Source: a virus
DNA length: 44,755 nt
Reading direction: 5' to 3' (one strand)
Virus record (IMG/VR): IMGVR_UViG_3300013132_003474
Span: 1-44,755 of that record
Made by a program: the position numbers and the translations under genes. The notes beneath the pieces were generated by a model that ran no database searches, had not been told where the DNA came from, and was given only the letters and a program-made list of their open reading frames with translations. This document shows, piece after piece, positions 21,782 to 26,031 of the stretch (the first letter of the stretch is position 1; each line of letters begins with the position of its first letter).

Positions 21782-23899
21782 TTGACACAGCAGCAACAGA
21801 CTGCGCCAACAACAGGCTTTGGCGCAAGTGTTATTACACACCAACAGTTGTATGATCAGTTCCTGCAAGATAGACAATTCACACACACGGATGAGCAAGC
21901 ATTAGGCTTAAAGCTTTTAACGCCCGAGGAAACACATAAGCTCTTAGGCCATACGCGTGAGGCGTCGATTCAGTTGCCGTACTTTGACTTGGATGGCAAA
22001 CAGACAGGCTTTAACCGCGTCCGTTTGTTGGCGCCAAAAAGCAAAATGAAATACTCACAGCCTAGAGCCTCGGGCTCACACATTTACTTTCCACCTACAA
22101 CGGGGTGGAGGCACGTCGCCAATGATGTTGATATACCTATCATCATTACGGAGGGTGAGTTTAAAGCCTGGCAGCTAACCAAGCATGTAACGTCGAACGC
22201 ATTGAGTTACGCATGCCTAGGCTTGGCCGGTGTTACGAGTTGGTCGGATAAGCAAGGCCTGCATCTGCATGCAGACTTAATGCAAATACTGTGGAGGCGT
22301 AAAACCAGCTTTGCAGATAAGTCGCGCAAAGTGTACATCATCTTTGACTATGATGGCAAAGAGGATAATGGTGAGCCTAATGAGCAGGTAGGCATGGCGG
22401 AGACTAAGTTAGCCGTGACGCTGCGTGGGCTAGGCGCCGAGGTTACACTGTGTCGTGTTGGACGATTCAGTTCAGGCAAGGGAAGTAAATATGCTATTGA
22501 TGATTTTTTACTAACCGGTGGCAGCTTGGGGCAAATCTTAACTGCAACCACAACGGTGATGAATGGCGTTGACACGTTAGAGACAAAGTTATATGAATTT
22601 AAAACTCAATACGCGTTGTTTAATGGCGACGTAATCAGACTGCGCGACGGATTGGTGCTTAACTGGGGCAAGGCTAAGATAGACTCGGCGCAGCATTTTT
22701 TTATACAGATGACGCCTAAAGCAAACGGAGGAGTCTCAACAAAAGAACTTCCACTAATCGAGGAGTACAAGAAATGGCCTAAGTGCTGTAAGCTTGAACA
22801 CATCGGTATGTACCCGGAATTTCAAGGCTTGCAGATCACACCAACCAGGTGTTACAACCTGTTTCGCGACTGGGCTCACGAGCCTTTAATTGGCGACCCT
22901 AGCCCGTACTTGGAATTTTGTCAATACTTTTTTCAAGCCGAGCCACACTTTGCGGAGTACTGGCACGACTGGGTAGCCAATGTCATACAATTCCCGTATA
23001 GGAGAAATAACACAAGCCCACAGTTCATACACGATATGCAAGGCATGGGCAAGTCCGCGATCCCTGAATTTATCGCCGAGATGTTGGGAATTGGCGAAGG
23101 CGCGCCGGCAGCGACGTTAGGCCCTGACGATCTTTTTGGCAACTTTAATGGTGTATTAAAAGGCAAAGTCTTTGTGGTTGTCAATGAGCCCTCAAGTGAT
23201 AGAGAGGACCACTCTGCAAAGCTAAAGAACCTAATCACTGGCAAAGAGATCATGATCAATAACAAGTATGGCGCGCAATACGTAATCAAGAATTACGTAA
23301 ACTACGTATTTACATCCAATAAGCCTTACATCACGCATATGGGCAACTCCAGCCGCCGCGAGGCGATTTACAAATGCCCAACGTTTGATCAGAAGGATAT
23401 CTTTGATCGTGTAAGCAACATGATGGCTTGGGCCAGAAAAGATGGAGGCAAAGGCTTTAGCTTTGTGTTGGATTGGTATTTGAACCGAGACATTACGAAA
23501 TTTGATCCATGGGCTGCGGCGCCAAAGACTAAATACAAAGAACAAGCTATCGCGTTGAGCAAAACACCTACCGAGGACTTTGCTCAAGAGCTCGTGCAAT
23601 GGATTATTAACAACTGTGGAGGCAAGGCCGCACTGACGGCCAATCAGATACAAGTTTTATGTGAAAAATGGGGCCATGATAAAAACGCCAAGCCTCAGTA
23701 CATACGCAAAGCTTTGGCTGCTTACGGAGATATTGAGCCTTCTCGATTAATAAAACACAATAAAAAATCAACTCGTTACACGATCATTGTGGTAACACCT
23801 GCAAATGGAGAAAGCTGCTTAATTGAAAATTACACGAGTCTTGTGAGAGAGACCGAAGCTGCTTTGACACAAGAAATTGGCAACGAAACTGCTTATTAA
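21782..23899 (+). CDS. Replication protein: TOPRIM-like DUF3854 domain plus DUF5906-type helicase
   Basis: The start is TTG 21782, with AGGAG 8 bases upstream; no ATG of comparable quality exists nearby. Residues about 60-250 form a TOPRIM-like DUF3854 domain, with IITEGE (E124) and IIFDYDG (D189, D191) as metal-binding residues. Residues about 380-600 form the DUF5906-type helicase core: Walker A MQGMGKS at 419-425, VFVVVNEPS, then a sensor-like VFTSNKP. The C-terminal 100 residues include a winged-helix-like DNA-binding part. Such proteins act as primase-helicases at phage forks. The product should load and unwind at the origin candidate that begins 9 bases after the stop. There is no zinc-binding primase N-terminus, so priming activity itself is inferred. 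Confidence 0.85.
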   Translation: MTQQQQTAPTTGFGASVITHQQLYDQFLQDRQFTHTDEQALGLKLLTPEETHKLLGHTREASIQLPYFDLDGKQTGFNRVRLLAPKSKMKYSQPRASGSHIYFPPTTGWRHVANDVDIPIIITEGEFKAWQLTKHVTSNALSYACLGLAGVTSWSDKQGLHLHADLMQILWRRKTSFADKSRKVYIIFDYDGKEDNGEPNEQVGMAETKLAVTLRGLGAEVTLCRVGRFSSGKGSKYAIDDFLLTGGSLGQILTATTTVMNGVDTLETKLYEFKTQYALFNGDVIRLRDGLVLNWGKAKIDSAQHFFIQMTPKANGGVSTKELPLIEEYKKWPKCCKLEHIGMYPEFQGLQITPTRCYNLFRDWAHEPLIGDPSPYLEFCQYFFQAEPHFAEYWHDWVANVIQFPYRRNNTSPQFIHDMQGMGKSAIPEFIAEMLGIGEGAPAATLGPDDLFGNFNGVLKGKVFVVVNEPSSDREDHSAKLKNLITGKEIMINNKYGAQYVIKNYVNYVFTSNKPYITHMGNSSRREAIYKCPTFDQKDIFDRVSNMMAWARKDGGKGFSFVLDWYLNRDITKFDPWAAAPKTKYKEQAIALSKTPTEDFAQELVQWIINNCGGKAALTANQIQVLCEKWGHDKNAKPQYIRKALAAYGDIEPSRLIKHNKKSTRYTIIVVTPANGESCLIENYTSLVRETEAALTQEIGNETAY

Positions 23900-23907
23900 T
23901 GAAAAAA

Positions 23908-24091
23908 GGTGTTACCCTGTTACTTTGGTGTTACCGATGAGAGCCTTTGCTGGATTGAAAGGTAACAAGGTAACAGTAAGTAACAGTAATTTATATTTTT
24001 ATATAGATATGTGTACTTATGTACATATATACATATATATACGTTTTTCTATAATAGTTTTCGGGCCTAGTGTTACCTGTTTTTTGTTACC
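23908..24091. other. Candidate replication origin: GTTACC/GGTAAC repeats flanking an AT-rich tract
   Basis: Three GTTAC-type boxes point one way (23911, 23919, 23930), three GTAAC boxes point the other way (23961, 23969, 23979), then a tract of almost pure A/T with ATGTACAT and ATACATATATATAC (23991-24058) follows, and two GTTACCTG boxes 14 bp apart close it (24072, 24086). Iteron-like boxes around an unwinding tract directly after the helicase gene is a classic origin layout. A transcription control site for the packaging genes is the alternative. An ATTGAAAGG element also lies inside (23954-23962). Confidence 0.6.
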
Positions 24092-24114
24092 TGCTGGCGC
24101 GAAATCCAAACCTG

Positions 24115-24144
24115 TGTACAATCCATAAAGTGTTATGGTATAAC
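24115..24144 (+). promoter_or_regulatory. Extended -10 promoter for the packaging/virion block
   Basis: TTATGGTATAAC has the TGn extension and TATAAC at 24139-24144, nearly identical to the minus-strand promoter at 17253-17261. TGTACA at 24115-24120 could be a weak -35 with an 18-base spacer. Transcription would begin near 24151, only about 5 bases before ATG 24156, so the first gene would be nearly leaderless. Confidence 0.5.
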
Positions 24145-24155
24145 TCACTTTCACT

Positions 24156-24623
24156 ATGACTACGAAAACTCCGACAAAGGACGGGAAGTTCTTAGGTCGA
24201 CCCACTAAGTACGATCCTGCGCTGTGCGAAAAAATTGAGCCACTTGGCAAACTGGGCAAGTCGCGTTGGCAAATCGCGTCCGAGCTTGGCATTACGCCAT
24301 CTAATCTTCGTAACTGGGAAGAAGTTCACGAAGATTTTCGGGCAGCCTTGGATTTAGCACGATTAGACGCGCTAGCTTACTGGGAAAAACTTGCTGAGAC
24401 GCACATCATTGAGACTCCAGGCGCGCCAAGGCTTAACACCGGGCTATGGTCGCGTTCCATGGCTGCGAGGTTTCCCAACGAATATCGTGAAAATTCTAAA
24501 GTCGAAGTCACCGGCAAGAATGAAGGTGCAATTCAAGTCGATGTAATGCATGACTTTTCACAAGATTTGATCAACGATCTCTTGGCTGTAAGACAGCGCG
24601 ATGCTGAAGCCGGAGGTAGCTGA
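24156..24623 (+). CDS. terS: Terminase small subunit
   Basis: The 155-residue product has an N-terminal DNA-binding region with a helix-turn-helix-like SRWQIASELGITPSNLRNWE at about residues 36-55, then a helical oligomerisation part and a C-terminal acidic end. Small terminase subunits bind the pac or cos site and hand DNA to the large subunit. The order HTH protein followed at once by the large terminase is the usual one, and the 23-bp overlap supports it. ATG 24156 has no visible ribosome site; the nearby promoter would give an almost leaderless mRNA. An internal start after residue 10 is possible. Confidence 0.8.
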   Translation: MTTKTPTKDGKFLGRPTKYDPALCEKIEPLGKLGKSRWQIASELGITPSNLRNWEEVHEDFRAALDLARLDALAYWEKLAETHIIETPGAPRLNTGLWSRSMAARFPNEYRENSKVEVTGKNEGAIQVDVMHDFSQDLINDLLAVRQRDAEAGGS

Positions 24624-26031
24624 GAAATTTGCCGACAAGATTCGTAATGGGCCGGATCTTGGCAAACTCCCACCAGAGCAGCGTGCTGCTGTCAAAGCAC
24701 GCATTAAGTGGCTTACCATCGCAAACAAGCACCAAATACCTCCAGCAGGAGATTGGTGGACGATATGGTTGCTCTTGGCAGGTCGAGGCGCCGGTAAAAC
24801 GCGCACTGCTGCTGAGTGGACCTGGCACGAAGCTTGGACCAAACCTAGTACGCGGTGGCTAGTGTCCGCGCCTACTTCAGGGGATGTACGCGATGTGTGC
24901 TTTGAGGGTGACTCAGGTTTGCTGAGCGTAACCCCCACCGAGTTGATTGAAACCTATACACGATCGTTGCATGAGCTACGCCTAAAGAACGGGAGTCTCA
25001 TCAAGGGGATTCCAGCCTCTGAGCCTGAGCGGTTCCGAGGCCCGCAGTTCCATGGTGGTTGGCTTGATGAGCTTGCAGCATGGGAGTACCTTGATGATTC
25101 GTGGGACATGATCCAATTCGGGCTACGGCTTGGCATACAGCCTCGCTTAATTTGCACCACAACGCCAAAACCAAAACCTTTAGTTGCCGATCTGGTGGCA
25201 CGCGACGGCCAGGATGTATGCTACACCACGGCCAGTACGTACGACAATCTCCAGAACCTCGCTCCGACCTTCAAACAACAAATTTTGCAGTATGAAGGAA
25301 CTACGTTAGGAAGACAAGAGATTTACGCCGAGCTTATTGATCCTGAAGAGTCAGGCATCGTAAAACGTGATTGGTTTAAGCTTTGGCCAAATGAGAAGGC
25401 GCTTCCACGATTTGAGTATGTCGTGCAAAGCTATGACTGCGCCACGTCTGACAAGACTAAGAATGATCCAACTGCCTGCACCGTGTGGGGCGTGTTTAAG
25501 CCGGGCGCGGACTCGGCAATGTCGGTCATGCTCATCGATTGCTGGGAAGAATACATGCAGTATCCGGATCTTAGGCCTCGTGTTATCGAGGAAGCAGGCG
25601 CCATTTACGGAGATGAGAATGAGTTTGGACATGGCAAAAAAGTTGATCTCATTTTAATCGAGGACAAATCAGCCGGCATATCACTTGTCCAGGACTTGCA
25701 GCGTGGTGGTTTGCCTGTAAGAGCTTACAATCCAGGCAACGCGGATAAGATGCAACGTCTTAACATTGTGAGCTCTATCATTGCCAAAGGCCGCGTCTAC
25801 GTGCCTGAGTCATCGGTCAAAGCGGGCTATGCTCGTGATTGGGCCGAGCCTCTCATTAACCAGCTTTGCTCGTTCCCCGAAGTTAGACACGATGACTTGG
25901 TAGACAGTACAACTCAGGCTTTAAGAATTTTACGCGACATGGGGCTCATAACTATCGATGTGGTGTATGATGACTCCGACTCTTACGTCGATGAGACAAG
26001 ACCTAAACGAGTAAATCCTTATGCCGCGTAA
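24601..26031 (+). CDS. terL: Terminase large subunit (packaging ATPase and nuclease)
   Basis: All hallmarks are present in 476 residues. Walker A is GRGAGKT at 61-67 and Walker B is GGWLDE with D155 and E156, followed by the coupling motif in ICTTTPKP. The RNase H-like nuclease domain has D278 (QSYDCATS), E353-D354 (LIEDKSAG) and D430-D431-D434 (RHDDLVD). It pumps DNA into the prohead through the portal encoded at 32021 and cuts it to length. The type resembles the Terminase_6 group. The start ATG 24601 lies inside the small-subunit gene with GGAGGT just downstream, not upstream, so translation is likely coupled. Its 3' end overlaps the next gene by 11 bp. Confidence 0.95.
   Translation: MLKPEVAEKFADKIRNGPDLGKLPPEQRAAVKARIKWLTIANKHQIPPAGDWWTIWLLLAGRGAGKTRTAAEWTWHEAWTKPSTRWLVSAPTSGDVRDVCFEGDSGLLSVTPTELIETYTRSLHELRLKNGSLIKGIPASEPERFRGPQFHGGWLDELAAWEYLDDSWDMIQFGLRLGIQPRLICTTTPKPKPLVADLVARDGQDVCYTTASTYDNLQNLAPTFKQQILQYEGTTLGRQEIYAELIDPEESGIVKRDWFKLWPNEKALPRFEYVVQSYDCATSDKTKNDPTACTVWGVFKPGADSAMSVMLIDCWEEYMQYPDLRPRVIEEAGAIYGDENEFGHGKKVDLILIEDKSAGISLVQDLQRGGLPVRAYNPGNADKMQRLNIVSSIIAKGRVYVPESSVKAGYARDWAEPLINQLCSFPEVRHDDLVDSTTQALRILRDMGLITIDVVYDDSDSYVDETRPKRVNPYAA

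Follow-up and report, generated by a model that had tools for sequence, protein, structure and literature searches.

A probable P4/SaPI-type replication origin next to the primase-helicase gene of an unstudied group of environmental tailed phages

Background

Replication sites lying after a primase or helicase gene are known from P4, from the staphylococcal SaPI and SCC islands, from Gram-negative PICIs and from pRN1. In P4 (NC_001609.1), the alpha protein combines a TOPRIM primase and a DUF5906 helicase, in this order and in a single protein, and mixed-orientation 8-bp iterons are found directly downstream of its gene, in crr. The annotated type-1 repeats of P4, TGTTCACC, are present in crr as well as in ori. 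A winged-helix origin-binding domain of alpha was described by Yeo et al. in 2002, as cited in PMC10516667. In SaPI Rep and SCC Cch2, binding to short iterons situated directly downstream of the gene is achieved by the C-terminal domain, and two helicase assemblies have been proposed for SaPI Rep (PMC7581432). The PriRep protein of SaPI5 contains a primase of the AEP type (PMC10516667), in contrast to the TOPRIM primase of the protein described below. Likewise, Gram-negative PICIs have their ori downstream of pri (PMC10111431), and plasmid pRN1 has an essential site just past its primase-helicase gene (PMC4234260).

The DNA analyzed here, hereafter called the window, is a stretch of 44,755 bases from an environmental virus (IMG/VR record IMGVR_UViG_3300013132_003474); the record being linear and of this length, the window is possibly incomplete. 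A preliminary description of this sequence had placed a candidate replication origin in the gap that follows a helicase gene. Our data make it very probable that this gap is a phage replication origin of the P4/SaPI type, the initiator of which would be the primase-helicase encoded directly upstream.

Results

Organization of the locus

The following features were recorded, in coordinates of the window:

21782..23899, plus strand: primase-helicase gene, 705 aa, proposed origin-binding initiator (Pfam DUF3854 and DUF5906; PHROG DNA primase; AF2 model)
23567..23878, plus strand: predicted winged helix, residues 596-699, proposed box reader (AF2 secondary structure)
23747..23749, plus strand: Leu656 codon, wing residue co-varying with the box word (alignment column 656)
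23910..23935, plus strand: left box group, three forward boxes (23910 TGTTACC, 23918 TGTTACT, 23929 TGTTACC)
23936..23960, no strand: left-middle spacer of the GAGCCTTTGCTGGATTGAA type, holding an IHF consensus in other clades, absent in the window
23961..23985, minus strand: middle box group, three reverse boxes (GGTAACA at 23961, GGTAACA at 23969, AGTAACA at 23979)
23987..24054, no strand: A/T-rich tract, proposed unwinding element (base composition)
24050..24063, plus strand: element TATAATAGTTTTCG at the right-hand tract end (in most relatives, this position is taken by TATATAGTTTTCG or variants of it)
24071..24091, plus strand: right box group, two forward boxes (TGTTACC at 24071 and 24085)
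24156..24623, plus strand: terS (terminase small subunit) gene, not the proposed reader (PHROG 309)
24601..26031, plus strand: TerL (terminase large subunit) gene (Pfam Terminase_6N/6C)

The upstream gene had been called a helicase gene, a correct but incomplete designation, since its product is a primase-helicase with a TOPRIM/DnaG-like N-terminus (DUF3854), an SF3 helicase (DUF5906, 64 bits against a Pfam cut-off of 27.6) and a predicted C-terminal winged helix. Neither a Pox_D5 nor a Zn-ribbon match was found in this protein. Its AlphaFold2 model (mean pLDDT 76, pTM 0.47) matched the folds of NrS-1 (helicase and C-terminal region, Z 20.5), of the SaPI5 primase-helicase (Z 17) and of the DnaG RNA-polymerase domain (Z 14.8), and a sequence search retrieved the NrS-1 primase at an E value of 9e-12. 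The DUF3854 match and the DnaG-like fold predict a primase located in the same protein as the SF3 helicase. In the model, the winged helix consists of helices at residues 596-612, 620-629, 638-648 and 684-699 and of strands at 649-659 and 662-671, the wing spanning residues 649-671. This order of elements was kept when the C-terminal domain was folded alone, with weak and generic winged-helix matches; the origin-binding domain of P4 was not among the fold matches listed for this C-terminal model.

The gap itself (23900-24155; 256 bp, 33.6% GC) separates the ORF at 21782-23899 from the one starting at 24156. It contains eight TGTTAC boxes in three orientation groups, as had been described: TGTTAC on the plus strand at 23910, 23918, 23929, 24071 and 24085, and its complement GTAACA at 23962, 23970 and 23980, with an extension to TGTTACC in six of the eight. 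The layout consists of three forward boxes, three reverse boxes, a 68-bp A/T tract and two forward boxes; the boxes thus surround the tract in the sense that two groups lie to its left and one to its right. The tract is real and includes the lowest-GC 68-base stretch of the window, but 'nearly pure' overstates its composition, 58 of the 68 positions being A/T (85%) and 10 being G/C. A box density far above chance was corroborated by dinucleotide-preserving shuffling of the gap, in which none of 5000 shuffles reached eight boxes (mean 0.46, maximum 5). Moreover, this frequency was not reached by any 6-mer, pure A/T words excluded, in other 256-bp stretches of the window. No second cluster of boxes was detected in the 44,755 bases of this linear, perhaps incomplete, record, and Rfam and tRNA scans of the window produced no matches.

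Two further suggestions of the preliminary description gained no support. The GC skew turned positive near 21 kb and not at 24 kb; since this turn coincides with a flip in gene direction, the skew follows gene direction, provides no separate support for an origin and was discarded as such. The DUF932 protein, named as a possible binder of the boxes, received no support in this analysis.

Conservation of the site in relatives

Three IMG/VR scans yielded 176 loci with the site, of which 50 were distinct once near-copies had been removed. All 50 displayed the gene order primase, gap, terS and TerL as far as their contigs reached, and most carried five to nine boxes of the majority word. The layout was stable, with a left group, a spacer, a reverse middle group, the A/T tract and a right group, the left group being inverted in part of the tree. 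In many lineages, the last left box and the first middle box were separated by about 33 bp, start to start. Non-conservation of the boxes beside the helicase gene had been put forward as an argument that would speak against an origin; the boxes proved to be conserved beside this gene, their letters varying and their layout remaining constant. In a site-pattern scan of viral contigs, among the matches listed, every array of seven to nine boxes with a single prevailing word adjoined this primase or terS, and the other arrays looked like chance occurrences. A scan of host-genome contigs returned one distant, unhelpful match.

Some relatives had extra bases in the region, amounting to about 130-170 on the primase side (L010 and L014) or about 220-330 on the terS side (L138, L139 and L143). 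Insert position was considered as evidence for the attachment of the site to one neighbor and rejected, because inserts occur on both sides alike and decide nothing. The insertion between site and terS measured about 300 bases and had an apparent short ORF in L139 and L143, and was a different one, at the same place, in L138. The primase gene of L014 (contig 3300042691_013751) showed one in-frame TAA close to the upstream boundary of the matched region, which may just mark the true start.

The left-middle spacer contained a perfect IHF consensus (AATCAAYAACTTA type) in 20 of the 50 relatives, for example at gap position 40 in L006 and at gap position 42 in L032, suggesting a DNA bend at the spacer in these phages. 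Altogether, 21 IHF sites were counted in the relatives against 2.1 expected, with a maximum of 6 in 100 shuffles, the count being inflated by relatedness. In the site of the window, the best match to the consensus WATCAANNNNTTR had two mismatches, and an IHF-assisted origin was consequently rejected for this phage. Members of its own clade have a conserved spacer, GAGCCTTWKCYRGATTGAA, in place of the IHF consensus.

Co-variation of box word and primase residue 656

The sites fell into three box words: TGTTAC in 16, TGTAAC in 20 and TGTAAT in 14. They were largely uniform internally, 89% of TGTWAY boxes carrying the majority word of their site (mean purity 0.89). The overall consensus was TGTWAYY, with a looser last position in TGTAAT sites. 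Mapped on a tree of primase residues 1-590, with the C-terminus left out, the word required 11 changes.

Column 656 of the primase alignment was the only one to separate TGTTAC phages perfectly from the rest, with Leu in 16 of 16 TGTTAC phages and in none of the 34 others. This residue is situated in the first strand of the wing in the AF2 model; its alignment was uncertain in the clade of L027, L032 and L150. Correction for the testing of many columns was based on 600 simulated traits, generated on the same tree with a similar group size and an equal number of changes, and none of them gave any perfect primase column. Independent pairs agreed with the rule in seven of seven cases on the best tree when all branches were used, and in four of four on well-supported branches; by themselves, the four pairs are too small a number to reach significance (p 0.125). 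L149, a phage recovered in a later scan after the rule had been seen, is a TGTTAC phage placed within TGTAAT relatives, and its residue 656 is Leu. Column 671 was considered as a TGTAAT marker, but was perfect in a 44-row alignment and not in the 50-row one, and was dropped.

No column of terS or TerL followed the box word, the best ones missing by 8 sequences. The closely related phages L096 and L097 illustrate this at short distance: L097 boxes are mostly GTAAC and those of L096 GTTAC, much of the remaining site is alike, and of the 15 positions at which their primases differ, 11 are within residues 655-680, residue 656 being Leu in L096 and Met in L097, whereas their terS proteins are identical. 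The terminases were rejected as box readers on both grounds, the lack of a co-varying column and one terS with two words. Since residue 656 follows the word and the terminases do not, the primase-helicase is the most likely protein to read the boxes, as judged from these sequence comparisons.

Discussion

The site immediately precedes terS and TerL in all relatives, which raises the question of DNA packaging. In lambda, the region just upstream of terS, cosB, also contains repeated boxes, arranged around an IHF site. A packaging-initiation site of the cosB or pac type, read by terS, would be in keeping with the start of terS 65 bp past the last box and with the IHF-consensus spacer of 20 of the 50 relatives. 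However, the box word does not follow terS, as it would in a lambda-type arrangement: terminase columns do not track it (best overlap 8) and a primase column does so perfectly. If terS were the reader, no difference in word would be expected between L096 and L097, whose terS is the same. Furthermore, many contigs run unbroken across the site, and distant Pseudomonas phages have an array straight after the primase with no terS annotated alongside. We regard a packaging site as very unlikely. An even smaller probability is given to the boxes being operators of a transcription regulator for the terminase operon, the A/T tract then being its promoter. A promoter-like TATACA-16-TATAAT does occur in the tract (24028-24055), with two boxes just beyond, but such matches numbered 2 against 0.8 expected and their hexamers were not kept in relatives, as assessed by eye. 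The eight boxes, uniform and arranged in three groups, also exceed what operators need, and their word tracks a primase rather than a regulator.

The origin beside the primase-helicase gene remains the best-supported reading, with a layout kept in 50 distinct relatives and a word that tracks the winged helix. The P4 precedent leaves some room for a different role of the same protein-site pair. As P4 crr, which immediately follows the alpha gene, is annotated as required in cis, and the origin annotated for P4 is about 4.5 kb distant, the gap could be an accessory cis site bound by the primase-helicase, with the true replication start elsewhere in the genome. This is unlikely, though somewhat less so than the two preceding explanations: the window, which may be incomplete, offers no other box cluster to serve as the start, and the arrangement of box groups on either side of a tract resembles that of an origin.

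For the preferred origin, we infer a course of events in which the C-terminal winged helix of the primase-helicase would bind the TGTTAC(C) boxes and the inverted left and middle groups would seat two helicase assemblies, similar in number to those proposed for SaPI Rep. The adjoining A/T tract would then melt, SF3 helicase rings would load, the TOPRIM domain would prime, and the family A polymerase of the phage (12803-14617) may extend the primers.

Sites of this kind are already known, given those that follow the primase or helicase genes of P4, SaPI/SCC, Gram-negative PICIs and pRN1; what deserves a specialist's test is that iteron word and wing residue have changed in concert. Residue 656 may possibly act as a specificity switch (Leu for TGTTAC; Val, Met or Ala for TGTAAC; others for TGTAAT), whole iteron arrays having repeatedly switched word together with it, a proposal we put forward tentatively and with somewhat less than even confidence. 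Such rewriting perhaps allowed escape from cross-use of the origin by co-infecting relatives or satellites. The 50 sites with their three box words, one residue as a candidate for specificity, and the near-identical natural pair L096/L097 make co-evolution of initiator and origin directly testable. A concrete origin and initiator are also proposed for an unstudied environmental phage group, and tailed-phage replication is tied to the P4/SaPI mechanism.

P4 shares the domain order of the protein and the iterons directly downstream, which read TGTTCACC in P4 and TGTTACC in the window, but its ori is separate and its crr duplicated, whereas the window has one site with the A/T tract between box groups and belongs to a tailed phage with its own polymerase. 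Pairwise comparison with alpha gave hardly any alignment (BLASTP E value of 0.23), DUF5906 being the only sequence family in common. SaPI Rep and SCCmec Cch2 likewise combine a D5-type SF3 helicase with iterons directly downstream, but these are staphylococcal islands with different iteron words. The primase-polymerase of phage NrS-1 is the closest solved structure for the helicase and the C-terminal region, its N-terminus being a PrimPol and not a TOPRIM domain.

Named phages offer further parallels. In Stenotrophomonas phage S1, 11 TGTGCGG boxes come straight after a DUF5906 primase gene and are followed by terS, as in the window; Pseudomonas phages pAN, Lodos, SC_9 and LPPA56 (L310, L311, L313 and L316) have 9-11 mixed-orientation TGTTGGG boxes in the 400 bp that follow a DUF5906-type primase gene. 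These five phages show about 25% protein identity and other box words, and their records bear no origin annotation on the arrays. It was by searching right after DUF5906 primase genes for a repeated TGT-word that the unannotated arrays of S1 and of the four Pseudomonas phages came to light. Speaking against the origin reading, repeat counts revealed no arrays after the primases of AXL3, PW916, MW202621, MW202496, Vibrio 1.111.A and RHph_I65, distant phages that share this helicase domain.

Three minor observations may be added. In the S1 record (L050:2454-2804, NC_011589.1), the hypothetical gene gp2 overlies the 11 TGTGCGG/CCGCACA boxes; the annotated ORF is possibly spurious, with an origin in its place. 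Directly after its DUF5906 gene, Moraxella phage Mcat7 (L314, after 3592) has an A/T-rich tract flanked by eight TGGTKCA boxes, an origin-like arrangement. Finally, the minus-strand segment 19368-20003 of the window matched PHROG 3704, listed as ferredoxin (moron/auxiliary metabolic), with an E value of 5e-80.
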